Shown piece after piece: positions 3,988 to 35,382 of a stretch of 35,382 nucleotides of DNA; the first letter of the stretch is position 1; each line of letters begins with the position of its first letter. The notes under the pieces were generated by a model. It searched no databases and was not told the DNA's origin. It worked only from the letters and a program-made list of their open reading frames with translations. Source of the stretch: a virus; IMG/VR virus record IMGVR_UViG_3300025111_000095, positions 1 to 35,382 of that record, one strand, 5' to 3'. The position numbers were made by a program, and so were the translations under genes.

Positions 3988-6027
3988 ATGTCTGAACAAC
4001 ACAAATCGCGTGAAATTGCCAATTTTATTTGGAACAGCATTGCCAATAAAATTCTATGGAATAAGATAAAAAAGGGGAAGTTCTCGGATGTTATATTCCC
4101 TTTTACGGTTATAAGGCGGATGGATTGTGTTTTGGAGCCTACCCATGAAAAGGTTCTCGCGGCACATGAAAAATACCACAAAGACCTCAAGAACCTTGAC
4201 GGAGTTTTAACCAAAGCTTCGGGGGCGATGTTTTACAACAAATCAAAATTCACATTAAAAATACTGCTGGACGACGCCCCCAGCATTAAAACCAATTTTG
4301 ACGCCTATCTTAATGGCTTTTCCCCCAATGTGCAGGAAATTATTGAGAAGTTTAAATTCAGAAACACTATAGATACCCTGCAGGAAAAGGAGATACTGTA
4401 CAGCCTGACTAAAGAGTTCTGCAAGCCTGATGTGGACTTGAGTCCCGCCTCATTATCCAACCACGAAATGGGTTATGTTTTCGAGGAACTTATCCGTAAA
4501 TACAATGAATCCACGGACGAAAACCCCGGCGAGCATTTTACGCCCAGGGAAATAATAAAGCTGATGGCGCGGATGGTTATTGCAAAAGACCATGACCACC
4601 TCAAACGCCGGGGAGCCATTGTCACGCTGCTCGACCCCTGCTGCGGCAGCGGCGGCATGCTTACCGTGGGCAAGGAAGAGATCTGCAAGGTCAACCCCAC
4701 TGCCAAGGTGGAGCTTTTTGGCCAGGAGTCCGTTGACGAGACATACGCGGCCTGTAAAGCAGACATGATGGTTAAAGGCGAGGACCCGGACAAGATTAAG
4801 CCCAACTCCAGTTTCTCGCATGATGGCTTCATCGGAAAAACTTTCGACTATATGCTTATGAACCCGCCTTACGGGTCGGATTGGACAGAGGATAAAGTTT
4901 TTATAAATACCGAGCACGATAAAGGCTCCAGCGGTCGGTTTGGGGTCGGCCTTCCTAGTATTGACGATGGTTCCCTGTTGTTTCTTCAGCATGTAATATC
5001 AAAGATGCATAAAGACAGGAACAAGAGCCGTATCGGCATAGTTTTCAACGGCTCCCCGCTTTTTAATGGCGATGCGGGCTCCGGCGAATCTGAGATAAGG
5101 CGTTGGGCGCTGGAGAATGACTGGCTGGAGGCTATTATAGGCCTGCCCAGAGACCTTTTTTACAATACCGGCATTTACACTTACATCTGGATGCTTACAA
5201 ACAGAAAGGATGAGGCGGATAGGGGCAAAGTGAAAATGATCGACGCCCGTGAGTATTGCCGGAAAATGGGCAAGAGCCTTGGTGATAAAAGGAATGAAAT
5301 AGCTGAAGAGCAAATATCCGAAATTATCAGCATGTATACCAGCGACCGGCAGAGCGAGAAAATTAAATTCTTCAAGACAACCGACTTCGCTTACCGCAAA
5401 GTACGCATAGAGCGGCCATTGCGGCTGAATTACCGTGCTTCGGCTGACAAGATAAAGAAGCTGGACGAGGAAAGCGGGTTCATTAACCTTGCGGTCTCCA
5501 AGAAGCTTAAAAATCAGGAGACAAAGGCACAGCAGGAGAGTGAAGGCATTGAGTTGCAGAAAAAGATTAAGAAACTGCTTGCTGGTTTGCCGGACAAGCT
5601 ATACAAAAACGCAGCAGATTTTGAAAGACTGCTTGACTCCGCATTTGAGAAGGCTGGGGTAAAAGTGCTGGCGCCCGCAAGGAAAGCGATCTTAAAGGCA
5701 CTGTCTGAAAAAGATGAGACGGCTGAAATAGTAAAAGACGCCGCTGGCGACCCGTTGCCGGATTCCGACCTACGGGATCATGAGTATATTCCGTACGCGG
5801 AGGACATCGAGAAGTATTTTGACCGCGAGGTTAAGCCATATGCGGCTGACGCCTGGATTGATAAAGGTTATGTGGATGAAAAGGACGGCAAAACCGGCAA
5901 GATAGGCTATGAGATAAACTTTAACCGGTATTTCTACAAGTACCAGCCGCCGCGCCCGCTTGAAGAGATTGAAAAGAATATTGCAACAGTTGAGGCTGAA
6001 ATAAAAGAAATGCTTTGGAGCAAGTGA
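3988..6027 (+). CDS. hsdM: Type I restriction-modification methyltransferase subunit HsdM
   Basis: A 679-aa N6-adenine methyltransferase that pairs with HsdS to methylate, and with HsdR to cleave, an asymmetric bipartite DNA site. The N-terminal helical HsdM domain precedes GEHFTPR at 181-187. AdoMet motif I is DPCCGSGG at 216-223 and catalytic motif IV is NPPY at 292-295, both intact. The C-terminal 200 residues are charged and end in a probable helical HsdS-contact segment. A GAGAGGGAA site precedes ATG 3988. The stop overlaps the hsdS start (TGATG), giving translational coupling. At 679 aa it is somewhat longer than enteric HsdM but normal for the larger subfamily. Confidence 0.96.
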   Translation: MSEQHKSREIANFIWNSIANKILWNKIKKGKFSDVIFPFTVIRRMDCVLEPTHEKVLAAHEKYHKDLKNLDGVLTKASGAMFYNKSKFTLKILLDDAPSIKTNFDAYLNGFSPNVQEIIEKFKFRNTIDTLQEKEILYSLTKEFCKPDVDLSPASLSNHEMGYVFEELIRKYNESTDENPGEHFTPREIIKLMARMVIAKDHDHLKRRGAIVTLLDPCCGSGGMLTVGKEEICKVNPTAKVELFGQESVDETYAACKADMMVKGEDPDKIKPNSSFSHDGFIGKTFDYMLMNPPYGSDWTEDKVFINTEHDKGSSGRFGVGLPSIDDGSLLFLQHVISKMHKDRNKSRIGIVFNGSPLFNGDAGSGESEIRRWALENDWLEAIIGLPRDLFYNTGIYTYIWMLTNRKDEADRGKVKMIDAREYCRKMGKSLGDKRNEIAEEQISEIISMYTSDRQSEKIKFFKTTDFAYRKVRIERPLRLNYRASADKIKKLDEESGFINLAVSKKLKNQETKAQQESEGIELQKKIKKLLAGLPDKLYKNAADFERLLDSAFEKAGVKVLAPARKAILKALSEKDETAEIVKDAAGDPLPDSDLRDHEYIPYAEDIEKYFDREVKPYAADAWIDKGYVDEKDGKTGKIGYEINFNRYFYKYQPPRPLEEIEKNIATVEAEIKEMLWSK

Positions 6028-7394
6028 TGAGAAAATATAAACAGTATCCAAAGTATAAACCCTCCGGAGTGGAGTGGATGGGAGTGATCCCGGAAGGGTG
6101 GGGGCTTAAAAGATTACGATTCTGCGCAGAAATTAACCCGAAGTGGGGTGGCGGCGTTTTAAATGGGTTAAAGGATACGGATGAAGTTTCCTTTGTGCCA
6201 ATGGAAGATGTTCCTGAGAACGAAACAGATTTAATTGCTGAAAAAACCGCGCTTCTTGAAAAAGTCAAAAATGGTTACACTTTTTTTACTGAGGGGGATG
6301 TTATCGTTGCAAAAATCACACCATGTTATGAGAATGGAAAAGGGGCGATAGCGGGGAAGTTGGTAAATGGTGTTGCCTTTGGCACTACAGAGTTGCACGT
6401 AATTAAAGCTGGGAAAGAATTAACAAATAAATATCTTTTTTATTACACAAAACTTAAAGGATTTAGAGAACATGGTGAAGCAAGTATGAAAGGCGCGGCC
6501 GGACAAAAGAGAGTCCCGGAATTGTATTTCAAGGATTGTTTGATTCCGATGCCTAAGTATGCGGCACAGAAAGAAATAACGAATTTTATAGACAAAGAAG
6601 CCGGACGCATTGATAAGGTTATCGAAAAGCAAAAACAATTTATTGAGCTTTTGAAGGAAAAGCGGGCGGCAGTTATTACCCATGCAGTCACCAAGGGCCT
6701 GGACCCCAAAGCCAAAATGAAAACGTCCGGAGTAGATTGGATCGGCGATATCCCGGAGGGATGGGAAGCGAAAAGATTAAAATTCCTTCTGAAACCTCAA
6801 AAAGGTGCTGTTAAATCTGGGCCTTTTGGCGCACATCTTAAAATAGATGATATGAAAGGGACAGACGTAAAAGTTTATGACCAAAAAAATGTAATCGAGC
6901 GCGATATAAATGAGGGCTCAAGTTATATTTCCAATGAAAAATTCGAAGAGCTTCAGGGGTTTGAGGTTTTTAAAGGTGATTTGCTCGTCACCACACGCGG
7001 GACTATTGGGCGTTGTTATATAGTTCCCGACAATGCGGAAAGGGGAATCCTGCACCCATGCCTCATGAGAGTTCAATTAGATGAACGCAAAATAGACCCT
7101 CTTTTGATTGAAATCTTAATTAATGATTCCAGTTTCTTTCTTGAGCAAATGCGGGCATTGAGCAATGGCACAACAATTGAGGTAATTTATACTGAAACAA
7201 TTAAAAACATAATTATCATCACCCCACCCAAGAGTGAACAAGCCGAGATAATTAAATATCTAAACGAAGAAATTTATCACACCGATAAGGTCATTGAGAA
7301 AACCGAAAAATGGATCGATTTAATGCAGGAGTACAGGCAATCCTTGGTCATCGCAGCAGTTACAGGCCAGATTGATGTCCGCGACGCAGAATAG
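6027..7394 (+). CDS. hsdS: Type I restriction-modification specificity subunit HsdS
   Basis: I take ATG 6027, sharing a base with the hsdM stop and preceded by GGAG, giving 455 aa. The protein has the expected internal duplication. TRD1 begins PSGVEWMGVIPEGW (about residue 12) and TRD2 begins TSGVDWIGDIPEGW (about 232). Each ends with a long conserved helix carrying DKVIEK (around 195-225 and 415-440). These two helices set the spacer between the two half-sites. The TRDs differ clearly, so the target should be an asymmetric bipartite sequence that cannot be read from here. No inverted alternative hsdS copy is present, so no shufflon-type switching is visible. Confidence 0.95.
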   Translation: MRKYKQYPKYKPSGVEWMGVIPEGWGLKRLRFCAEINPKWGGGVLNGLKDTDEVSFVPMEDVPENETDLIAEKTALLEKVKNGYTFFTEGDVIVAKITPCYENGKGAIAGKLVNGVAFGTTELHVIKAGKELTNKYLFYYTKLKGFREHGEASMKGAAGQKRVPELYFKDCLIPMPKYAAQKEITNFIDKEAGRIDKVIEKQKQFIELLKEKRAAVITHAVTKGLDPKAKMKTSGVDWIGDIPEGWEAKRLKFLLKPQKGAVKSGPFGAHLKIDDMKGTDVKVYDQKNVIERDINEGSSYISNEKFEELQGFEVFKGDLLVTTRGTIGRCYIVPDNAERGILHPCLMRVQLDERKIDPLLIEILINDSSFFLEQMRALSNGTTIEVIYTETIKNIIIITPPKSEQAEIIKYLNEEIYHTDKVIEKTEKWIDLMQEYRQSLVIAAVTGQIDVRDAE

Positions 7395-7408
7395 CAAGGG
7401 GAAACATT

Positions 7409-10360
7409 ATGACAACCATAAGCGAAAAAGACATGGAATCCCAAATCGAGAAGGACCTGATTAAAACCGGTTACTTTAAAAGAAACTCGGAGAAACACTA
7501 CAGCAAGACCACCTGCGTGGATAAAGACCAACTGATAAATTTCCTGATCGCCACCCAGAAAGAGCGCTGGGATGCATACGCAAAACACCATGGCGCCGGC
7601 GCTGAAGACGCTTTGATAAACCGGATAAAGGATTTCATCGACAAACACGGTACATTGGAGCTGCTGCGCAAGCCGCTCGGTATATACGGAGTATATTTCG
7701 ACCTGGCATATTTCAAGCCTGCAAGCGGCCTTAATGCGGAAGATAAAGTAAGGTATGAGGGGAACATCCTCAGCGTTATGCGCCAGGTGAAATACAGCGA
7801 AAAGAATGAAAACTCGCTGGACATGGTTGTTTTGTTGAACGGGCTACCCCTAATCACCTTGGAGCTTAAAGATAAGATGACCGCCTCCGGATATACGGTA
7901 AATGACGCTATAGAGCAATACCAGAAAGACCGGGACCCTAAAGAGCCGTTATTCCGCTTTAAACGCTGCCTTGTGCATTTTGCTGTAGATGAAGATAATG
8001 TGTACATGTCCACCGAATTGAAAGGCCTGGCAACATGGTTCCTGCCTTTCAATAAAGGGAACAAGAACCAGGCTGGCAACCCGTCTACCGCCGGTTTCCC
8101 TGTGGAATACCTCTGGAAAGAGATATTCCTGCGTGACAGCCTGCTTGAAATCATCCAGTATTTTATTCAGACTGCCCCGGTTCTGGACGAGGATGGCCGT
8201 GAAACAGGCGGGGAAATACTTATATTCCCAAGGTATCAGCAGCTGGACGCCGTAAGGCAGCTGCTTAAAGACGCAAAGAAAAATGGTGCCGGGAAGAACT
8301 ACCTTATACAGCACAGCGCCGGCAGCGGCAAGTCCAATACCATCAGCTGGCTTGTGCATCAACTGGCAAGCGCTCATGATGGTGCGGATCAAGTGGTTTT
8401 TGACTCCACAATTGTGGTCACGGATAGAAGGATATTGGACTCCCAGCTCCGGAACACCATCAAATCCTTTCAGCATGTCAGCGGCCTTGTTGTGGGCGTA
8501 GAGGACGGCTCAAAACAATTGAAAGAGGAACTGGAAAGCGGAACAAAAATAATAATAACCACGCTGCAAAAGTTTCCAAGGATAGAGAAGCAGATAAAAA
8601 TGCTGCCCGGCAAACGCTTCGCGATAATACTTGACGAGGCGCATTCGTCGTCGAGCGGGGAGATGTCAAAAAGTCTGAAAAAAGTGCTCAACCTTAATGC
8701 CGAAGATGATGCGGAGGAAAAGGAAGAGGAGACCTGGGAGGATAAAATTGAAGAGGATATAAAAGCCAGGGGCAAACAGAAAAATGTCAGTTATTTCGCC
8801 TTTACCGCAACCCCTAAACCTAAGACCCTTGAGCTTTTTGGTGTCAAACAGAAGGACGGCAGCTTCAAGCCATTTCACCTGTATTCGATGCGCCAGGCAA
8901 TACAGGAAAAATTTATCAAGGACGTTCTTCCGAATTATATAACCTATACCACTTATTTTGAGCTGATTAAAAAGGTTGCAGCCGACCCCGCATACGACAA
9001 AGCCAAGGCCTCGCGCCTATTAAAGGTTTTTGTCGAACTGGCCCCGCAAACCATAGAAAAGAAAACCGAAATTATAATAACCCATTTTATGGAGCATTGC
9101 GCGGCTGAGATGAATGGCCAAGCCAAGGCAATGATGGTATGCTCCTCACGGGCACAGGCCGTTAAATACAAGCTCGCTTTTGACAAATATCTGCAGGCGA
9201 ACAAGCTGCCTTACCAGGCCCTAGTTGCCTTTTCCGGCTCAATAGAGGATGGCAGCGGTACGGATTACACCGAAGCGCGGCTGAATGGTTTCCCTGAAAG
9301 CCAAACCGCTAAAGTCTTCCGAGATAAAAAATACAAGTTCCTGATCTGCGCTAATAAATTTCAGACCGGTTATGACATGCCGCTCCTCTATGCTATGTAC
9401 GTAAACAAAAAGCTGCATGGCGTTAATGCCGTGCAGACGGTAAGCCGGCTTAACCGGATCTTTAAAGACAAGAAAGATCCGATAACCATGGATTTCATCA
9501 ACCCGCCCAAGGTTATACAAAAAGCCTTCCAAGACTTTTATGAGGAAGTGGAGCTGGAGAATGAAACCGACCCCAACAGGCTGTATGACCTGAAGAAGGG
9601 GTTGGACGACGCCGGCTACTATACCTTGGCTGATGTAGATGAGTTCAACCGGATACTCCATACGGGTTCCTGTACTCAGAGCCAGCTTGTCCCGGTTCTG
9701 AACCGTATTGTGGATAAATTCAAGGCTGATAAAGACCAGAAACATCGTGATTTATTTAGGTCTACAATGAAAGCTTATCTGCGCCTGTATTCTTTCCTTG
9801 TGCAGATAGTGTCCTTTCCGGTTAAAGACTTACACAAGCTGTATTTGCTCTGCCGCATACTTTACCGCAAGCTGCCGCATGACAGTGTGCCGCTTCCTAT
9901 TGAAGTTCTGCAGCAGGCCGACCTTAACTCGCTGAAGATTAAAAAGATTAACACCGGCCTTACTGTAAAACCGGGGGAAGGCGGAGTTTTCAAGCCGGAA
10001 GAAGACCGGGTGTATGTTAAACCTCAGGAAGTGCTGGAGCCGCTGTCTATCATTATTAAATGGATAAATGAGCACTTCGGGACCAACTTTACCGAGGCTG
10101 ATAAGGAAGTTGTCGCAATAATAATCAGCCGCCTTAGCGGAGATGCGGAGTTTGAGGAGGAGGTGGCAAACAATCCGGAAGGCAGCGTTCTCCATGTATT
10201 CGAAAAAAGGTTTAATGGCTTACTGCAGGAAATGATAGAAACGCAGTTTGATTTCTATAAAAAGCTGAACAACAACTCAGAAGCTAAAGAGGACCTGATG
10301 AAGCGAATGTTCAAGGTCCTTTATGAGAAGCTAAAGAAAAGGGACGGCGCCAGACCCTGA
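7409..10360 (+). CDS. hsdR: Type I restriction enzyme subunit HsdR (nuclease and translocase)
   Basis: A 983-aa motor and nuclease subunit that translocates and cuts unmethylated DNA. The N-terminal PD-(D/E)xK nuclease shows D138 followed by ELK at 152-154. Superfamily 2 helicase motifs follow: Walker A SAGSGKSN at 303-310, and DEAH at 409-412 within IILDEAHSS. Later motifs include FTATPKPKT and a QTVSRLNR-type motif VI. The C-terminal helical region would bind the HsdM-HsdS core. A GGGGAAA site lies just before ATG 7409. All motifs appear intact, so the system should be restriction-competent. The stop overlaps a following ATG (TGATG). Confidence 0.96.
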   Translation: MTTISEKDMESQIEKDLIKTGYFKRNSEKHYSKTTCVDKDQLINFLIATQKERWDAYAKHHGAGAEDALINRIKDFIDKHGTLELLRKPLGIYGVYFDLAYFKPASGLNAEDKVRYEGNILSVMRQVKYSEKNENSLDMVVLLNGLPLITLELKDKMTASGYTVNDAIEQYQKDRDPKEPLFRFKRCLVHFAVDEDNVYMSTELKGLATWFLPFNKGNKNQAGNPSTAGFPVEYLWKEIFLRDSLLEIIQYFIQTAPVLDEDGRETGGEILIFPRYQQLDAVRQLLKDAKKNGAGKNYLIQHSAGSGKSNTISWLVHQLASAHDGADQVVFDSTIVVTDRRILDSQLRNTIKSFQHVSGLVVGVEDGSKQLKEELESGTKIIITTLQKFPRIEKQIKMLPGKRFAIILDEAHSSSSGEMSKSLKKVLNLNAEDDAEEKEEETWEDKIEEDIKARGKQKNVSYFAFTATPKPKTLELFGVKQKDGSFKPFHLYSMRQAIQEKFIKDVLPNYITYTTYFELIKKVAADPAYDKAKASRLLKVFVELAPQTIEKKTEIIITHFMEHCAAEMNGQAKAMMVCSSRAQAVKYKLAFDKYLQANKLPYQALVAFSGSIEDGSGTDYTEARLNGFPESQTAKVFRDKKYKFLICANKFQTGYDMPLLYAMYVNKKLHGVNAVQTVSRLNRIFKDKKDPITMDFINPPKVIQKAFQDFYEEVELENETDPNRLYDLKKGLDDAGYYTLADVDEFNRILHTGSCTQSQLVPVLNRIVDKFKADKDQKHRDLFRSTMKAYLRLYSFLVQIVSFPVKDLHKLYLLCRILYRKLPHDSVPLPIEVLQQADLNSLKIKKINTGLTVKPGEGGVFKPEEDRVYVKPQEVLEPLSIIIKWINEHFGTNFTEADKEVVAIIISRLSGDAEFEEEVANNPEGSVLHVFEKRFNGLLQEMIETQFDFYKKLNNNSEAKEDLMKRMFKVLYEKLKKRDGARP

Positions 10361-27678: not shown

Positions 27679-28581
27679 TTACAAAGTCACACCGGCCAGC
27701 CGTGACGCTTTAATGTCATTAGCCAGAACCAGCGTGATATCCTCGAAGATGTCGAACTCTGAAAACTGCGATGACTTCTGCGCCAGGCGAAGCATCTTTA
27801 GAGGCGTCAATTCACCCACCCACACTGCGCTCGTATCCACCACCAAGATGTCCGTGCAGTTGTTGGCGTTGCCTTGAACTTGAGTTTCCGAGACAAAAGT
27901 AGAGCGGAATATCGGGATGCCGTTATAGTTCTGCAGGCGGAACCCGCCCTTTACCTCCATCGTGTCCGTGAACCGCTGCTGGGCCTGGAGCAGGCCGTTT
28001 AGCTTGCGGTTGGCTTTCTTGGACATTATCAGCATGCTGGGGTTGCCCCGGTTTAGGTCTATGGCGGCATCCAACAGCTCAAGGCTCAACGGCGCACCGT
28101 TTGTTCCTGCTATAACCACCTGTCCGGCAGGAATAATCTTGCGCATACCGTTAAACTGCTTGGGGTTGGCTACCGAATCTCCGTTGATGATGGCATCCTC
28201 CTCAGCATCTCTGACTGCCTGGAGGGCGTTATCAACTTCCTCAGTCTCGATGTCCAGAAGCGACTTCCCTACGGCCTGGAGTTTGCGGGTCACCTTGCCG
28301 CGCTGGATGATGGTCCGATATGGAAACTTCTTCTGAGCATAAGAAGCCTGAGTTTCCGTAGGTTCATCCGTGTCGTCTACAAAAGCCCCGCCCGCGCCGC
28401 GTGATGTGCGCTGGTTGAGAATCCACTCTGATCCGGAACCTGTTTTCCTGGGCAGGTTTTGCCGCAGTGGATTGTTTACTTCTATGAGTTCCTGCAGAAC
28501 CGTGTCTATCATAGGCTGTTGCAACGTGCCGCCCGCGTTAGCCAGGTTCAGCGCTTTTTTCAACTGTTCTAAATCATTCAT
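27679..28581 (-). CDS. Major capsid protein, HK97 fold
   Basis: A 300-aa protein with a very strong ribosome-binding site (TAGGAGGAATAAGAA before ATG), as expected for the most abundant virion protein. An N-arm (MNDLEQLKKALNLANAGGTL) is followed by an E-loop-like segment (PYRTIIQRGKVTRKLQAVGK), the spine helix with VRDAEEDAIINGD, the P-domain segment SMLIMSKKANRKLNGL, and a final beta region ending DIKASRLAGVTL. There is no 100-residue delta domain, so scaffolding must come from elsewhere, consistent with the scaffold-like tail of the adjacent protease. Confidence 0.88.
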   Translation of the reverse strand: MNDLEQLKKALNLANAGGTLQQPMIDTVLQELIEVNNPLRQNLPRKTGSGSEWILNQRTSRGAGGAFVDDTDEPTETQASYAQKKFPYRTIIQRGKVTRKLQAVGKSLLDIETEEVDNALQAVRDAEEDAIINGDSVANPKQFNGMRKIIPAGQVVIAGTNGAPLSLELLDAAIDLNRGNPSMLIMSKKANRKLNGLLQAQQRFTDTMEVKGGFRLQNYNGIPIFRSTFVSETQVQGNANNCTDILVVDTSAVWVGELTPLKMLRLAQKSSQFSEFDIFEDITLVLANDIKASRLAGVTL

Positions 28582-28593
28582 TTCTTATTCCTC

Positions 28594-29160
28594 CTATTTC
28601 CTTTCCTGAATTGCCAGCGCCGCCCGGAGTTTCTTATCCGGCGGAAGGTTGTCGAACTGCTTTTTTACTTCGTCGGCCTCTGTATCCGGCTGGATGAGGC
28701 CCTTCCTTAAAGTCGGAACGGCCTTGAGAGCGGTTTCGACCTGCTTGGAGACCTCACCGGCTATCAGCTTCGCCAGGTCGTCAGTGCTGATCGTCTTGGC
28801 GGCCGCCGGAATAGGGGAAACCGGGTCCCCGGCCATCTGCTTGAGCAGAGTCTTGACCTGCTGCGCGAGAGCGCCAGCCGGTCCGCCCAGGGCGATCAGC
28901 TTGTCCAGCAATACAAACGCCGGTTCAAGCCGGGCTTTTATCATGCCCATATCGGTCTTCTGGATTTCTGCGGGCTTCTGCGCTTGTGCCTGCACTACGG
29001 CATCCGCTCCTTTTGGCTTTTCCTCTGGGGCGGGCGCATTCTGTTTGGCAGGGGCGGGAATGGCAGCCGCAGGCTCCGGCGCAGACGGTTCGCTGGGTGG
29101 CGGCGGCGTTGGGGTTTCACTCTGAGGGGGAACTTCTTCTATGATCACTTCTTCTGGCAT
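28594..29160 (-). CDS. Nested scaffold protein (in-frame internal start)
   Basis: ATG 29160 (codon 178 of the protease frame) is preceded by AAGGAG exactly eight bases upstream (29169-29174), stronger than the site in front of the protease itself. Translation from here would give 188 aa with only the acidic/Pro-rich linker and the helical scaffold-like part. This is the same logic as lambda C/Nu3, where the protease gene contains an internal start that yields excess free scaffold. Supported by RBS strength and the exact domain boundary; not proven. Confidence 0.6.
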   Translation of the reverse strand: MPEEVIIEEVPPQSETPTPPPPSEPSAPEPAAAIPAPAKQNAPAPEEKPKGADAVVQAQAQKPAEIQKTDMGMIKARLEPAFVLLDKLIALGGPAGALAQQVKTLLKQMAGDPVSPIPAAAKTISTDDLAKLIAGEVSKQVETALKAVPTLRKGLIQPDTEADEVKKQFDNLPPDKKLRAALAIQERK

Positions 29161-29691
29161 TGTTTTGTCTCCTTGTTCTTCGGTTTCGTTAAGGGCTTTT
29201 GCTATGTACCACCCGATGGCTTTGGCTTCTGGGTTTGCGGGGACTGACACGAGCGATACTTCAACCAGGCTCATGCGCTGGATAATATTGACCATGCGGT
29301 CGTGTTCCGTAGAAAACTTCCGTTCCCTTTCCAGCACCTGCCCGCGAATGGAAAATTTATTGAGGACGCCTTCCTTGATTTTCTGGATGATGTCCTGTTC
29401 GGTTTTTGAGATAAGCGCGTCTATCAGCAGGCCATGCTGGTCGAACTCGACCTTGGTCACCTTGCCGATGGGCAGCTTCATGTCGTGATTCAAAAGGACG
29501 GTGGAGTTTTTGAGTAAATCAAGAGAGGATGCTTTGAGAGCCTCTTCGGTTATGATGTCGCCCTGCAAATCAAAATCGGTCGTGGCGGCATAACCGACCA
29601 CGTGGAACTCACCGGCTTCCTCGGCATACTTCAATACCTGTACCGGGAATGAGAATCCAATCTTCTCCGAAAGTATCGTTTGTGTTTTCAT
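28594..29691 (-). CDS. HK97-type prohead protease fused to scaffold-like domain
   Basis: Starting at ATG 29691 with GGATAA upstream (the open frame to 29706 begins only with TTG), the product is 365 aa. Residues 1-165 are an S78-type prohead protease: H69 in LLNHDMKLPIG, S114 in KFSIRG, and the LVEVSLVSVPANP signature at 142-154. The Pro/Ala-rich linker at about 185-240 leads to a helical, charged C-terminal region (about 250-365) typical of scaffolds. The protease processes scaffold and capsid during maturation. A second translation start for the scaffold part is likely at codon 178. Confidence 0.88.
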   Translation of the reverse strand: MKTQTILSEKIGFSFPVQVLKYAEEAGEFHVVGYAATTDFDLQGDIITEEALKASSLDLLKNSTVLLNHDMKLPIGKVTKVEFDQHGLLIDALISKTEQDIIQKIKEGVLNKFSIRGQVLERERKFSTEHDRMVNIIQRMSLVEVSLVSVPANPEAKAIGWYIAKALNETEEQGDKTMPEEVIIEEVPPQSETPTPPPPSEPSAPEPAAAIPAPAKQNAPAPEEKPKGADAVVQAQAQKPAEIQKTDMGMIKARLEPAFVLLDKLIALGGPAGALAQQVKTLLKQMAGDPVSPIPAAAKTISTDDLAKLIAGEVSKQVETALKAVPTLRKGLIQPDTEADEVKKQFDNLPPDKKLRAALAIQERK

Positions 29692-29700
29692 GTTTATCCA

Positions 29701-29750
29701 AAACAAAAAAGCGCTGCCGGTCCCTGTTACATCGGGACCAACAGCGCTTC
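29701..29750 (-). terminator. Intrinsic terminator between the 59-aa gene and the protease gene
   Basis: On the minus strand the stem is AGCGCTG...CAGCGCT (29742-29748 with 29710-29716), followed inwards by GGTCCC/GGGACC with a nine-base loop and a two-base internal loop, then TTTTTTGTTT (29701-29710). A strong rho-independent terminator inside an otherwise continuous late operon. Late transcripts must read through it, perhaps by antitermination, or the protease gene has another promoter. Confidence 0.88.
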
Positions 29751-29769
29751 GACTCAGTTCGACAGCGCT
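29743..29769 (-). promoter_or_regulatory. Second hairpin overlapping the terminator stem
   Basis: Just upstream of the terminator in the transcript, AGCGCTG TCGA, a six-base ACTGAG loop, then TCGA AGCGCT can pair. Its 3' AGCGCT is the same segment that forms the 5' outer stem of the terminator, so the two structures compete. The core GGTCCC/GGGACC stem could persist in either state, so switching strength is uncertain. Confidence 0.5.
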
Positions 29770-29775
29770 AAATGA

Positions 29776-29955
29776 TTATTCTTCCTTCAAACCGCGCATA
29801 TCCTTCACAAGAAGAGTTTCATGTTTCTTAACCCGCACAAGCCGGCCGTCCTGATAATGAACTTCCAGTGTGCCGTAGAAACGCTCACGGCGGAGCTTTG
29901 CTGTAAGCTCCTCGAATTTAGACTCCAGTGTTTCCAGTGCCTGCGTTTCTGCCAT
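29776..29955 (-). CDS. 59-aa protein, DUF2292/YezD-like
   Basis: A short minus-strand gene of 59 aa. The N-terminal helix (ALETLESKFEELTAKLRRE) precedes a small beta unit FYGTLEVHYQDGRLVRVKKH, resembling the YezD/DUF2292 pattern (YG-x-V-x-I-x-V-x-DG-R-V). The function of that family is unknown to me. The gene has no clear Shine-Dalgarno, but a sigma70-like promoter ends six bases before its ATG, so the message is probably leaderless. It is bracketed by an operator-like palindrome and a strong terminator: a moron-like independent transcription unit in the head gene cluster. Confidence 0.7.
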   Translation of the reverse strand: MAETQALETLESKFEELTAKLRRERFYGTLEVHYQDGRLVRVKKHETLLVKDMRGLKEE

Positions 29956-29961
29956 ATCTAA

Positions 29962-29990
29962 ATTCTAATGCATCGGTTGCCGTTTGTCCA
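29962..29990 (-). promoter_or_regulatory. Sigma70-like promoter for the 59-aa gene
   Basis: Minus-strand TGGACA (29985-29990) and TAGAAT (29962-29967) each differ from consensus by one base and are separated by exactly 17 bases. The expected transcription start, about six to seven bases beyond the -10, coincides with the ATG at 29955, implying a leaderless mRNA. Confidence 0.65.
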
Positions 29991-29992
29991 TG

Positions 29993-30008
29993 AACTGTTT
30001 AAACAGTT
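29993..30008. promoter_or_regulatory. 16-bp perfect palindrome, operator-like
   Basis: AACTGTTTAAACAGTT is a perfect dyad, placed two bases upstream of the -35 hexamer of the 59-aa gene promoter and ending at the stop codon of the methyltransferase gene. Size and position fit a dimeric repressor or activator operator. No second copy was noticed elsewhere in the window by eye. Confidence 0.6.
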
Positions 30009-32023
30009 TACGCAGCCGGATTGCTGCTGACAATCTCAGCATGCGTTTCGTCGGTCCCCTGTGATTTCTCAAAGTAAAGATTCAGCGGCTTGAGCGGGAA
30101 GTTTGAAACGAGGAGTTCGTATTTATGACGCACTCCTAATTGGTGCATGCCGGTCCACAAGGTTTTTACGCGATAGGTTTTGAAGCCTTTGAAAAGCCCC
30201 AGTTTTTCCAGTTCGTAGCTCAGGATGAATTTCCCTTTGATGCTTTTGAGTGCCGGGATTAAATCTTCCTCTTTGAAGAATTTGGAGCCGTGATCTCCGC
30301 CCTCTTTGGGCCAGTGAATTGGATAGGGCGGGTCAAGGTAAAAGAATGTATTGTCGGAATCATATTCTTTGAGGATGTCCTGCCAATCCCATGAATGGAG
30401 CGTTACGTTCTTAAGCCTCTCCTGGATGTCGGGCAGCTTAAGCGGTAGTCTGATGTGATAGCCCTCGCCGTTTCTGCCAGTTCTAACGCCTTCCCATGAG
30501 TCAGTCCTGCCCCAGTAGGTCGCCTTGTTTAGATAGGCGAAGCGGTAAAACCTTTCCCGCGGCGTTTTGGGCTGGCTCTCAAACAGCTTCCGGGCCCGGA
30601 TTCTGTGTATGACCCAGTCCTGTTTATTCAGCCAGTTTAAATCCTCTGGCGTCATGCTCTTGATGAAGCGATAGGCGAACATGAGGTCGGAGTTAACGTC
30701 ATTGATGACTTCCGCATCCGACCGCTTCTTATGGAAGAATACCTGGGCGCCGCCGCAAAAAGCCTCCACATAATTCTTATGCTCCGGGATAAGCGCCAGG
30801 ATTTTCTTGTAAAGCCGGTATTTGCCGCCGGGGCTTTTGAAAGCGCCATGAACCTTCTCCAGTTCCGGCGCGTCCTCAAGCTGCGGTAGAAATGGGGGGG
30901 CTTTATCCTCCATGCCTTCCGGCTCGGGTGTTAGGTCCTTCTCGATGTAAAGGTGAAGTGGCTTTAACGGGAAATTAGAGGCCATCATCTCTGTGACCCA
31001 CTCCTGATTGCCGCCCGGGCCTCTCATCTGATTCCTGCGCTTAACTATGTAGACGTTGTAACCCTTGAAAACTTTGACTCGTTCAGACGGATATGAGATT
31101 ATCCATTTCGCCTTCAGGCCCTTAATGGCTTTCAGAAAGTCCTCTTCTTTGAACCCGAAGTCAAAGAGGTTGAATTTGCCGGGATACGGTGGGTCCATGT
31201 AGAAGAACGTCTCCGGGCTGTCATAGTCCTTTAGCACCTGCAAATAGTCTTTGTTGGTGACCGCCACGTTGCGCAGCCGCTCTTGCGCGCGATCCACGGT
31301 GTTCGGGAAGTCTATCTTTACGCCTTCGTTGGCGGGGTTAAATGAGCCGCCTCGCATTTTGCCGTAGGAAGACCGGGTCAGATAGAATGATTTGTAGAAG
31401 CGGTCGCGGTCGGTTTCCGGCTTCAGGGCTTTAAGGCGTTCGTGGGTCTCCCTGAGGATTGTCCATTCGCGTTTTGCCAGCGCGTTGCTGTCCTCCGGGC
31501 TGTGGTCCCGTATAAATTTATGCATGAAAGCGATCTCCGCGTCGCGGTCGTTTAATGCTTCCTGCGGCGATGGGTCCTTGGCATAGAGCACAGCCGCGCC
31601 GCCCGCGAACGGCTCGACATAGGTGCGGTGGTGGGGGATGTACGAAGCTATCCGGTGAGCCAGATAGCGCTTTCCGCCGTAAGAACCGAACGCCTGGCGC
31701 ACGCCTTTTTCTGCGTCGTTATCATAATCCGCCTCTGCGACATCCTCGGCGATTATCGCCAGCGTTTGCTCTTGCAAATCGTCCTGAATAGTATGCTGGA
31801 AGCCCCGGCGGGTCATCTCCAGTTGGACTACGATATGCAACGCCAGGATGTCCTGCGCGTCCCAGTTCGTGGTTTCGTCAAACACCTTGTGCCCGGCCTG
31901 CAGCATGGTCCATGCCCTGTGCAGGATGAAGTCCATGGACAGCAGCTCTTGATCTGGTAACTTGGCCGGGTCCGAACGGAATAGCTCGCCGTAATCCGCA
32001 AAGTTAATTTTCACTGTTTCCAT
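30008..32023 (-). CDS. Tandem two-domain Dam-like (D12 class) adenine-N6 methyltransferase
   Basis: A 671-aa protein with GAGGAGA before its ATG. Residues 1-108 form an extra helical N-terminal domain of unknown role. Two complete D12-type methylase domains follow. Domain one (about 111-362): GGKRYLA, motif I TYVEPFAGG at 134-142, motif IV DPPY at 277-280. Domain two (about 393-653): GGKYRLY, motif I NYVEAFCGG at 417-425, DPPY at 564-567. Both end SNFPLKPL(H/N)LY(I/F)EK, so they arose by duplication. Both look catalytically intact. The linker (about 365-390) is Pro/Glu-rich and contains a C7 run. Likely methylates phage DNA against restriction; target unknown. Confidence 0.85.
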   Translation of the reverse strand: METVKINFADYGELFRSDPAKLPDQELLSMDFILHRAWTMLQAGHKVFDETTNWDAQDILALHIVVQLEMTRRGFQHTIQDDLQEQTLAIIAEDVAEADYDNDAEKGVRQAFGSYGGKRYLAHRIASYIPHHRTYVEPFAGGAAVLYAKDPSPQEALNDRDAEIAFMHKFIRDHSPEDSNALAKREWTILRETHERLKALKPETDRDRFYKSFYLTRSSYGKMRGGSFNPANEGVKIDFPNTVDRAQERLRNVAVTNKDYLQVLKDYDSPETFFYMDPPYPGKFNLFDFGFKEEDFLKAIKGLKAKWIISYPSERVKVFKGYNVYIVKRRNQMRGPGGNQEWVTEMMASNFPLKPLHLYIEKDLTPEPEGMEDKAPPFLPQLEDAPELEKVHGAFKSPGGKYRLYKKILALIPEHKNYVEAFCGGAQVFFHKKRSDAEVINDVNSDLMFAYRFIKSMTPEDLNWLNKQDWVIHRIRARKLFESQPKTPRERFYRFAYLNKATYWGRTDSWEGVRTGRNGEGYHIRLPLKLPDIQERLKNVTLHSWDWQDILKEYDSDNTFFYLDPPYPIHWPKEGGDHGSKFFKEEDLIPALKSIKGKFILSYELEKLGLFKGFKTYRVKTLWTGMHQLGVRHKYELLVSNFPLKPLNLYFEKSQGTDETHAEIVSSNPAA

Positions 32024-32025
32024 AA

Positions 32026-33987
32026 TTATTTCTCCTCAAGCACCGAAACAAAGGTGCATCTGCAATTTGGATGTGCTGGCAGTACGCCAGACGCTTCGTC
32101 CAATGCCATGATCTTGCCGAGTTTCTCACCGGGCGCAGTCTCAGCTGCGTCCGCGCACTCAATACACGCGTCGCCCGCCAGCAACCATTGGACTTTTTCA
32201 ACTCCGGCCTGCTTAAGCGCGTCCAGATTGCCCGCATTATACGCACGGTTCGCCTCTGTGCGGGCTATAACCTCGGCCAGAACATCTTTGCCGATTACCC
32301 GACTGCTGGCTTCCCGTAAAACATTTCCTTGAGCATCTATGACCGGCTTTACTGTAATGGTCTGGCTGCCGACCCAGTTCTCAATGCGCCGCATAAGCTG
32401 TGGGATGGTTTCATTGGCCGTAATTCCAGCCGATAATTCTTCCCGGAGCCGGTCAACCATCCCACCTGCTAAATCTCCAGCCAAGGCGGAGGCCTCACTC
32501 TTGATTTTCTCCTGTATGCCTGGGCTTAAGTCCTCGACTCTTTCAAGTCCGTCTCTCTGCGCAGCCAGTGCAAGACCCTTCCGCGCGGCCTCCAAAGAGA
32601 ACTTCTCTATGGTTCTGGCGATGCCGTCTTTATCAACCAGTTGGAGCAGCACCTCTAAATCACCCTCGCGTTTGATGCCCGGCAGTTTTGCTTTGACTGC
32701 GTCGCCTATCTTGCGAAACATGGTCCGTACAGCCTCAACGAACTTGTTCTCAAGCGACACTATCGCCCGTGTGGCGTTGACTATGGTCTCACGTGGATTC
32801 AGCGATTTCTGCATCTCCGGCATTCTGGGCGCGACTATCCTGCGCACCTCGTCCGGGCTGAATACGCTGTTTTGCAGGTAGATATTGAAAATCTCGGCTT
32901 GGTCTTTCTCGTCTATCGCCCGCTTGTTGAACTGGAACGCCCAGTCGTTGATGCCGAAGCCCTGGCGGATGACATGCTTTGTCAGCTTCTCCGCCAGCCG
33001 CATCTGGAAGGGGGAAATAGTCTCATCGTAAAACGTGGCCGTCTGATGATCGCCAGTGCCCGCGCCGATGTTCCCGGTCTCTATAATAGACACCTTGCTC
33101 GGCGGAACGCCGTAGACTGCCAGTATCTCGTTTCTGGTGAACTCCCGGAGTTCCAGGAACTCCATGTCTTTCTGTGTCGTGCTTATCTGCTTAAACTCGA
33201 TGTCGCCCTCCAGCACCAAATCCGAATGCGCCATGTCCGGATTCTTGACCCTGGCCTCCATATATTCGCGGTTACGCTCCACCTGCTCCGGGGTCGCGTC
33301 TTTCATAATAAATGCGCCCCTGATTTTTGCGCCATTCAGGAAGAACGCCCGGTTGTATATCTGCGCGTATTTATCAACCGTAACCGGCAGTATCAATGAA
33401 GCCAGCGGGGAAAGGCCGTAGAGGGTAGCCCCCTTGGTTCCCAGTTTGAAGTGAATAACTTCCCTGGGTGTGAATTCGACCTTTCCCGACTGGTTCCTGG
33501 GGACTTGGATGTAACCCGTAATAGTGCCGTGCTCGTCCGCTTTCACCCGCACCGTGGTCGCGTCCAGATTCCATAGTTCTCTGGGCTTACCGTCCGCGCC
33601 GTAGACCACCTCAAGAAACGCGTTGCCGAATACATAAACGTCGCGGGCGATATCGTCCAGTATCTCCAGCAGTGTGTCGTTGGGATTGCAGTTGGCGAAG
33701 AACTCCTGCAGGACTTCGGCGTTATTGGAGTCGGCATTGGCCTTTGCCGGCGATAGCGAATATCCCCGGGCGGTGACCGCCTTGCAGATGACGCCGACTA
33801 CCGCGCGGACCCAGGAGGTCTGCTCATACATCTGGTTAAAAATCTCAAAATCTATGTCCGGCAGGATGCCCTCGGTTGAGGACTGCAAGCCGGTCACATA
33901 GGAGATTATCTGCTTGGATGATTTCTGCATTTCCTCCCGGATAACGCCGCCGAACAGCGCCTTCACAAGTCTTTCTCTTATGCCCAT
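32026..33987 (-). CDS. Portal protein fused to MuF-like minor head domain
   Basis: ATG 33987 has AAAAGGAGA seven bases upstream and gives 653 aa; the open frame upstream of it lies in the previous gene. Residues 1-400 are a portal of the HK97 type: FNQMYEQTSWVRAVV, ARDVYVFGNAFLEVV, HFKLGTKGATLYGLSPLASL, EILAVYGVPPSKVS. The C-terminal part (about 480-653) has MuF features: EVIARTEANRAYNAGNLDAL, then CIECADAA and AHPNCRCTF. Portal and MuF are usually separate adjacent genes; here they are one polypeptide. The portal ring is the DNA channel; the MuF part would be inside the prohead. Confidence 0.9.
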   Translation of the reverse strand: MGIRERLVKALFGGVIREEMQKSSKQIISYVTGLQSSTEGILPDIDFEIFNQMYEQTSWVRAVVGVICKAVTARGYSLSPAKANADSNNAEVLQEFFANCNPNDTLLEILDDIARDVYVFGNAFLEVVYGADGKPRELWNLDATTVRVKADEHGTITGYIQVPRNQSGKVEFTPREVIHFKLGTKGATLYGLSPLASLILPVTVDKYAQIYNRAFFLNGAKIRGAFIMKDATPEQVERNREYMEARVKNPDMAHSDLVLEGDIEFKQISTTQKDMEFLELREFTRNEILAVYGVPPSKVSIIETGNIGAGTGDHQTATFYDETISPFQMRLAEKLTKHVIRQGFGINDWAFQFNKRAIDEKDQAEIFNIYLQNSVFSPDEVRRIVAPRMPEMQKSLNPRETIVNATRAIVSLENKFVEAVRTMFRKIGDAVKAKLPGIKREGDLEVLLQLVDKDGIARTIEKFSLEAARKGLALAAQRDGLERVEDLSPGIQEKIKSEASALAGDLAGGMVDRLREELSAGITANETIPQLMRRIENWVGSQTITVKPVIDAQGNVLREASSRVIGKDVLAEVIARTEANRAYNAGNLDALKQAGVEKVQWLLAGDACIECADAAETAPGEKLGKIMALDEASGVLPAHPNCRCTFVSVLEEK

Positions 33988-34751
33988 AAGCTGTCTCCTT
34001 TTGAAATCCCAGCGGAGTGCCGGAACCGCCCCGACCCCTTGAGTGTGGGACACTCAAAGCTCTCTCTTGAGCCCTCCTCCGCATCTATCCACCACTTTAG
34101 GTCGCACTTCTTGGGATACTCGCTGCGCCAGTTAAACGGCGATTCCTTGAGCAGCGCCTTCCGAATCTTGTGCGAGCACATGAATTTGCAGTACCTGAAC
34201 TGGAAGCCCGAGATCTTGGTCAATCCAATGCTGCGGGTGAACCCGTTGGCTCTGGTCCCGTAGCGGGTTATCAAAAGCCTGGGATGGACAACCTCGCCGT
34301 CTGCTGTGCAGTAAAACTGACTCTTGATAAAACCGCCGTAAAGCCAGTTCGCCGACTGGTAAACATAACCGGGCTTGCCCCGGAGACCATCAGCCCAACT
34401 AAACAAAACGTGGACACAGGGGAAGTCCTGCTCTATATGCAGGCCGCACAATTTCAAAAACATACTTTCGGTATTGCGGGGCATCTCGTCCAGCACGCAG
34501 AACCTGTTCAGCTCCAGATAGTTGTTCACGCCAAGCGACGGGAATAGCCTGCGAATGGTATGCATAGGCCGCGTACCGAAGCCCCATAGCGCAACACCGA
34601 CCAGTTTCTCGCCTTTGAACAGGCCGTAGGTTATCTTCGTTATGGGCGGGCAGATGACGGCGTAATGATGCGCCGCGACAAAATCCCTCCCCGTTGTGTT
34701 GGGAATGGCGGTTATGGATAAAGTTTCGGCTGCGCCGTTCAGTTTAGACAT
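33978..34751 (-). CDS. Mom-like DNA-modification protein (GNAT-fold family)
   Basis: ATG 34751 overlaps the terminase stop by eight bases and gives 257 aa; the frame upstream of it is a shadow of the terminase gene. Residues about 20-190 show the pattern I know from phage Mom-related proteins: a HHYAVICPP-type opening, LVGVALWGFGTRP, NNYLELNRFCVLDEMPRNTE, LFSWADGLRGKPGYVYQSAN followed by WLYGG. In Mu, Mom converts adenine to a carbamoylmethyl form that resists restriction. The C-terminal 60 residues are basic with cysteines (CKFMC, PKKCD). Chemistry in this phage is inferred from family resemblance only. Confidence 0.72.
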   Translation of the reverse strand: MSKLNGAAETLSITAIPNTTGRDFVAAHHYAVICPPITKITYGLFKGEKLVGVALWGFGTRPMHTIRRLFPSLGVNNYLELNRFCVLDEMPRNTESMFLKLCGLHIEQDFPCVHVLFSWADGLRGKPGYVYQSANWLYGGFIKSQFYCTADGEVVHPRLLITRYGTRANGFTRSIGLTKISGFQFRYCKFMCSHKIRKALLKESPFNWRSEYPKKCDLKWWIDAEEGSRESFECPTLKGSGRFRHSAGISKGDSLWA

Positions 34752-35382
34752 AATTATCAAACCGCCTGGAATCGCCCACGTAATATATCTTCGGCACAAC
34801 GCGCTGTGTTTCCAACGCCTGGATGGCCAGCCAGAGCGCGTCCAGCATATCTTCGGTGCCATGGGGGAAGTGGAGCAGTTCTTCTTCAAGTTGCGTTAGC
34901 CAGGCCATGCCGTTCGGCTTTGGCAGGCGTATAGCGCCGTTCTCAAAAAGCGGGGTTAAGCCGCGCAGCCTGGCATGTTTATCATCGGACGCGTTTATGG
35001 TTTTAAGCGGCATACGCTTGGTCTCTTCGTCCGTACGCAGCGACTCGGCAAAGGCCGCCTGATAGCCATTGGATTCTACCGCCATCAGGCATGGGTGGTA
35101 CTGGTGAAATACCCGTTTAGCCGCTTTGAGTTGCTCATTGAACGGAATCCTGTCGCGGTAGGCGTCAATGACGTAGACATTCCCTGCTTTATCCTTGCCG
35201 ATGACGCAATAAGCAAATCGCGAACTGCCCTCCCGCCGGGAGATAGCCAGATCAATCCCCACGTAGATCGAGAGACCATCCGGCACGTGGTCATACCTGC
35301 CGGAATCAAGCCACGCCGCCTTAAAGTCAGAGCCCTCCTGGCCGGATGGATCATTGAGATACAGGCAATTGTAAGAGCTCGT
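34744..35382 (-). CDS. terL: Terminase large subunit, C-terminal nuclease part (truncated by window edge)
   Basis: The frame is open from the right edge of the window to 34744 (212 codons visible), so the gene starts outside; an apparent GTG start at 35286 is internal. The visible part is the RNase H-like nuclease domain that cuts concatemers into headful or unit-length genomes. Acidic motifs are VGIDLAIS, then VESNGY and the final HGTEDMLDALWLA. The ATPase domain is missing because of the edge. The stop overlaps the Mom-like gene. It is the first visible gene of the leftward late operon. Confidence 0.9.
   Translation of the reverse strand, partial: TSSYNCLYLNDPSGQEGSDFKAAWLDSGRYDHVPDGLSIYVGIDLAISRREGSSRFAYCVIGKDKAGNVYVIDAYRDRIPFNEQLKAAKRVFHQYHPCLMAVESNGYQAAFAESLRTDEETKRMPLKTINASDDKHARLRGLTPLFENGAIRLPKPNGMAWLTQLEEELLHFPHGTEDMLDALWLAIQALETQRVVPKIYYVGDSRRFDNYV

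Follow-up and report, generated by a model that had tools for sequence, protein, structure and literature searches.

A covarying two-state RNA, possibly a conditional terminator, between a small YezD-like gene and the head genes of related prophages

The window analysed here, a viral DNA of 35,382 nucleotides (IMG/VR record IMGVR_UViG_3300025111_000095), contains between its methylase and head maturation protease genes a small gene followed by an RNA that can adopt two mutually exclusive conserved folds, one of which is an intrinsic terminator. From sequence comparison, this two-state RNA looks like a new regulatory switch and not like an independent passenger gene. With slightly better than even confidence, the whole unit is read as the late leader cistron and conditional terminator of the head operon, and not as a passenger cassette. 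In the mechanism proposed, a late promoter, of which the prophage has two similar copies, would yield a leaderless mRNA for a YezD-like protein of 59 amino acids. Past the stop codon, the RNA would fold either as a hairpin, P1, or as the terminator, P2, with one strand in common; P1 would form first, and the full P2 stem would win only once the last nucleotides are made. If P1 is stabilised, the polymerase would read through into the protease and capsid genes; if P1 is lost, for example to a terminating ribosome over its 5′ arm, the transcript would end as a short YezD mRNA.

The unit lies on the minus strand, and every feature that a preliminary description of this DNA had placed in it was found, with correct coordinates. 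In the direction of transcription it comprises: a palindromic site, CGTAAACTGTTTAAACAGTTCATG (29989–30012), whose perfect core spans 29993–30008 and whose centre lies about 45 nt 5′ of the predicted transcript start; a -35 element, TGGACA (29985–29990); a -10 element, TAGAAT (29962–29967), at a spacing of 17; the YezD/DUF2292-like gene (29776–29955), whose ATG is the predicted transcript start; P1, a bulged hairpin that competes with the terminator (29743–29769); and P2 (29705–29749). The protease gene (28594–29691, minus strand, ATG at 29691) is the first gene past the putative conditional terminator and is followed by the major capsid gene (27679–28581). The terminator is as strong as had been proposed: its stem (29749–29734 paired with 29724–29709) and the six U that follow (29710–29705) give -32.1 kcal/mol, with a z of -7.6. 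A simple terminator scanner missed it because its loop has 9 nt. Since the U-tract ends only 13 nt before the protease ATG, a transcript entering from upstream reaches the head genes only by passing P2.

The terminator had also been described as a dual hairpin. The second hairpin, P1, is real, but it competes with the terminator instead of adding to it: one and the same strand serves P1 as its 3′ arm and P2 as the lower part of its 5′ arm, and the folds are mutually exclusive. In each of the seven element types that were folded, P1 has a bulge of one base or a small asymmetric loop at a constant position, and it usually starts 3–9 nt past the stop codon (more than 100 nt in G164_C7 and G169). 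Over 13 elements, paired cells amount to 95.4% for P1 and 94.6% for P2. Over 25 elements, P1 is 91.6% paired with 23 two-sided changes (7.9 ± 2.4 in shuffles, a type of test inflated by the relatedness of the sequences), and P2 is 99.1% paired with 20 two-sided changes. When partners are slid, pairing is far lower for both stems, falling to 21–51% for P1 with slides of 1–3 columns in the 25 elements. The lower stem of P1 is a near-invariant GCGC, which covaries little and says little alone. The best sign that the RNA may do double duty comes from the columns common to both stems, which change only in ways that preserve both: where a shared C becomes U, P2 compensates and P1 retains a G-U or A-U pair. 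The 5′ arm of P1, which P2 does not need, is nearly invariant. In folds of the growing RNA, P1 is best from nt 36 to 66 and the full P2 wins from nt 69, with a final lead of 5.8 kcal/mol; because P2 is far more stable at equilibrium, P1 would need help to matter.

RNA antiterminators of the BglG/LicT type are examples of attenuators. In transcription attenuators in general, antiterminator and terminator folds compete (PMC7430163), and the present element has the same structure, with a short hairpin overlapping the 5′ arm of an intrinsic terminator and both mutually exclusive folds conserved; P1 would here be the antiterminator. The element differs from attenuators in having no Rfam family and, in phages, in its place within an operon, past a small gene's stop codon. 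An Rfam search of positions 28000–31000 at E up to 5 left the window copy without a family and returned only an unrelated chance match elsewhere (14.5 versus 70 bits). Antisense matches of the RNA model were discarded, being merely the inverted repeat itself.

The element is not confined to head operons. A covariance model built from 13 elements was used to find previously unseen ones, and the host class was found to hold 28 elements in 13 of 235 genomes. They lie upstream of prophage proteases, before primase-like genes of integrative elements, before a tail-tube gene, and, in G164 and G165, in the 5′ leaders of class III cyclase-like genes, a short way past sequences that resemble promoters. 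A YezD-like ORF stands upstream of 17 of the 28 (18 counting a weak match, by our own tally); at the primase-like genes it ends 1–2 nt before the match (G178, G182, G215 and, weakly, G192). One prophage, G164_C7, has two P1/P2 elements, and three chromosomal PF10055 genes inspected in the phylum have no P1/P2 behind them. In the G223 element, P1/P2 and a similar palindrome promoter are accompanied by an integrase and a primase-like gene; its locus (L243, G223:C60:108000-120000) shows a palindrome promoter of the phage type, GTTTAAACGGATTATGGAC, and then TAATCT at spacing 17, and may be a satellite employing the same type of promoter as the phage. The cyclase-like genes with leader elements number seven (PF00211; L185, L201 and L203–L207), each with its P1/P2 behind a promoter-like sequence, and one of them matches PycC in PADLOC (E 1e-4). 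Two further loci in different families, L190 (G333:C9) and L191 (G140:C90), share the same element and a downstream gene of 119 aa whose YezD-like similarity is weak (E 0.52), which reflects either a recent transfer or a shared contaminant contig.

The gene upstream of the element is very probably translated. Purifying selection acts on it (dN/dS 0.07–0.23 among six orthologs), which argues that its protein is made. The reported absence of a Shine-Dalgarno sequence holds: the duplex energy is +0.2 kcal/mol. Random sequence averages -2.8, and among the 18 other phage starts that were scored, 16 reach -4 to -11.5 kcal/mol. Most orthologs lack the sequence too. The distance from the -10 to the ATG is 6–7 nt in most of them, 10 nt in G177–G179, 15 nt in G164_C7 and 19 nt in L050. 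A -10 about 6–7 nt 5′ of the ATG and no Shine-Dalgarno is the arrangement of leaderless genes, and the leaderless promoter of the preliminary description becomes a probable leaderless start, with transcription predicted from the ATG and the -10/ATG arrangement kept in diverged relatives. The one ortholog with a ribosome-binding site, L050, also has TATAAT at spacing 17 and a terminator; relatives combining an ordinary site with the loss of promoter or terminator did not appear. Leaderless genes with a -10 adjoining the ORF have been described (PMC12340547). The likeness lies in the -10 hexamer 6–10 nt before the ATG in most orthologs and in the missing Shine-Dalgarno, and the difference in that a single gene is concerned here, in a phage whose other genes mostly carry one.

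As to the protein family, the proposed DUF2292/YezD assignment stands for the similarity and fails for the membership. Syntenic orthologs in G177 and G178 pass the Pfam gathering score (28.0 and 27.7 bits), but the window protein stays under it (15.4 versus 22 bits) and is filed as YezD-like, not as a member of DUF2292 (PF10055). Thirteen of the 15 members have a PF10055 match with E no higher than 0.1, and two match OscA. With the DUF2292/YezD/OscA family (PF10055, NF033785) the protein has in common a helix plus β-hairpin and the pattern FYGT-E-x-QDG-x-VRVKKHE, from which the strand RVKKHE is basic and conserved; it differs in its sub-threshold score and its phage operon context. The oscA gene is annotated with a role in sulfur starvation (PMC10433965), whereas nothing in the phage data points to sulfur. 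An AlphaFold model likewise gives a helix and a β-hairpin (mean pLDDT 81). A fold search returned no PDB match and no solved relative, only one unnamed viral protein at E 0.017. The YezD-like protein was found neither in the phage record collection nor by a pattern scan of GTDB contigs.

The near-consensus promoter was confirmed (29990–29985 and 29967–29962, 17 nt apart, 10 of 12 consensus matches), and a promoter with spacing 17–18 is conserved over seven lineages. In offset profiles that took one sequence per lineage and counted the best -10 match downstream of the -35, the head copy has a mean best match of 4.43 of 6 at spacing 17, against a background of 2.2 ± 0.58 (seven lineages). The 16-bp perfect palindrome AACTGTTTAAACAGTT was confirmed too; the window holds two such palindromes against 0.55 expected, and it is not significant alone. 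The real evidence for it is its conservation, not its perfection. The preliminary description had recommended a search in related prophages, and there the site, scored like the promoter copies by weight matrix, is conserved in diverged relatives and weak in the G164 type (5 of 11 positions). Shuffled palindrome arms matched as well in 0 of 1000 trials in one spacing class, 28 of 1000 in a second, which is marginal, and 262 of 1000 in a third, which is no better than shuffled. The palindromic site is probably a contact site for an activator or sigma factor. Several other explanations of these sequences were tried and set aside. Protein-coding conservation over the palindrome, suggested by KxFKxxYGL in several copies, fails as the frame differs among copies and start codons are absent; a mini-ORF from ATGGAC, present in several copies, leaves the -10 peak at spacing 17 unexplained; a single-subunit RNA polymerase promoter was rejected because no such polymerase occurs among the scanned proteins, which covered part of the genes. 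A LexA box was ruled out on a spacing that we take to be wrong for the E. coli type. Pattern matches in coding sequence (L036, L043) and in another context (L037, L045) were put down to probable chance. The promoter is also distinct from the late promoters of P2-like phages, which are activated by the zinc-finger protein Ogr at TGTTGT-N13-ACAACA and show no -35/-10 (PMC5694545). The likeness lies in a palindromic site upstream of several late promoters and a small phage-encoded zinc-finger protein; here, in contrast, the site is about CATAAACNGTTTAAACNGTTTATGGAC and a -35 and -10 are present, outside the pattern of a TGT-N12/13-ACA site without σ70 elements, and the zinc-finger protein matches no Pfam activator family.

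A second copy of the promoter motif lies 5.5–10 kb upstream, at a zinc-finger gene before the terminase, in all 11 prophages whose flanking sequence reaches far enough; in the prophage of the window it falls past the window end (G000:C27:92180-92201). Its -10 profile also peaks at 17 (4.0 versus 2.08 ± 0.57). The two copies of one phage tend to have phage-specific letters in common: CAGTTCATGGAC in the window phage, CCAGAATA in the G164 type, and GGCGCT followed by GAATGAAGA or GAAATGAAGA in G005. These letters and the recurrence of the motif at zinc-finger/terminase genes suggest a trans-acting factor and a regulon shared by both copies, and the individual regulation proposed for the small gene finds little support. 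One candidate factor is a sigma-like protein encoded about 9 kb upstream of the terminase copy (G000:C27:101331-101939; L008:11332-11940, minus strand), and found in every one of the 11 related prophages whose flank is long enough; in the window phage it scores 27.9 bits for Pfam Sigma70_ECF (PF07638), above the cut-off of 21.1. Another is the basic zinc-finger protein encoded at the second copy itself. There the -10 overlaps the zinc-finger ATG in half of the sites and follows it in the others, so the zinc-finger gene must be transcribed from further upstream. That the promoter is paired with one at the terminase speaks for late expression in the lytic phase, and expression in the lysogen, as suggested earlier, is poorly supported.

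The original interpretation of the unit was that of a moron: an autonomous cassette of promoter, gene and terminator that the lysogen expresses and that benefits the host. Phage morons have their own promoter and terminator (PMC6469090); the window unit has both within 310 bp around a small gene, conserved in relatives, and its GC content is slightly lower than that of the adjoining head region (0.49 versus 0.54). Comparison with relatives nevertheless makes this interpretation quite improbable. Searching 341 genomes of the host phylum with the protease added further related prophages, several of them from one genome, G164; for RpoB, identity between the host and the named genomes found did not exceed 50%. 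The gene is not sporadic, being fixed in the lineage and occupying this position in 18 of the 19 related phages examined; its promoter motif is common to the terminase genes, and head genes stand directly behind its terminator, conditional as proposed. Nor is a self-contained cassette supported, given the 13 nt to the protease and the single exception, G005. This phage lacks the small gene and the terminator at the head site, and the same promoter leads directly into the protease; elsewhere on its contig a PF10055-type gene has a weak P1/P2-like match behind it (20.2 bits, E 0.13). Three independent viral contigs retain the block from palindrome to protease, and the DNA before it changes. Related phages carry differing reverse-strand cargo genes between methylase and YezD-like gene (L003:2066-3903, L002:3455-3871), one of which weakly resembles candidate defence families, and the interval may be read as a cargo hot spot bordered by the palindrome. 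The window also has a type I restriction-modification system (3988–10360, plus strand; HsdM, HsdS and HsdR by Pfam), situated within the part listed in IMG/VR as provirus, and a Mom-like DNA modification gene (33978–34889, minus strand; PF25680, E 1e-38) that overlaps the terminase end and precedes the portal. A convincing moron reading of one genome thus changes once relatives are aligned.

It might also be that P2 terminates unconditionally, as an ordinary terminator insulating a small late gene, with P1 merely a stabilising or pausing hairpin and the head genes expressed through leakage or general phage antitermination. The strength of P2 and its win at equilibrium agree with this; the covariation of P1, its conserved yet P2-dispensable 5′ arm and the shared columns do not, nor does the recurrence of the whole element ahead of primase, cyclase and tail-tube genes, which in cyclase leaders places it immediately past promoter-like sequences, and we regard this explanation as unlikely. 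About as doubtful is the proposal that the palindrome is a repressor operator silencing the promoter in the lysogen instead of an activator or sigma site: it adjoins the -35, and it is perfect over 16 bp, but it lies upstream of the -35 and not over the promoter, a position typical of activators, and the -35 and -10 are imperfect in most copies. If the unit is a conditional terminator, the candidates for its trigger are a protein on P1, perhaps the YezD-like one, and a terminating ribosome covering the P1 5′ arm. Control by the ribosome is weakened by the elements lying more than 100 nt past the stop codon in G164_C7 and G169, and because of such distant elements and of cyclase leaders without a YezD ORF a trans-acting factor is favoured. 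That the YezD-like protein itself binds P1 and decides between the two folds, in cis and perhaps in trans, is a tentative idea, a little less doubtful than the two preceding ones. It fits the YezD-like ORFs found ahead of elements in head and primase operons alike, the constant bulge of P1, a feature frequent in protein-bound hairpins, the basic strand and the two elements of one prophage; it fits less well with the empty result of the fold search against solved structures, the chromosomal PF10055 genes devoid of P1/P2 and the cyclase leaders that lack an adjoining YezD-like gene.

Whatever the trigger, a covarying RNA of conditional-terminator type without Rfam match recurs within one bacterial class in the head operons of prophages, in the primase operons of integrative elements and in leaders of cyclase-like genes. 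Speculatively, the YezD/DUF2292-like proteins of these phages and integrative elements might be RNA-binding termination regulators that act on P1/P2, a new RNA class setting the expression of structural and primase genes and present also in leaders of host cyclase-like genes. If the element is a switch, it would explain the timing of capsid synthesis in these phages and would provide the first concrete, testable role for a DUF2292-like protein.
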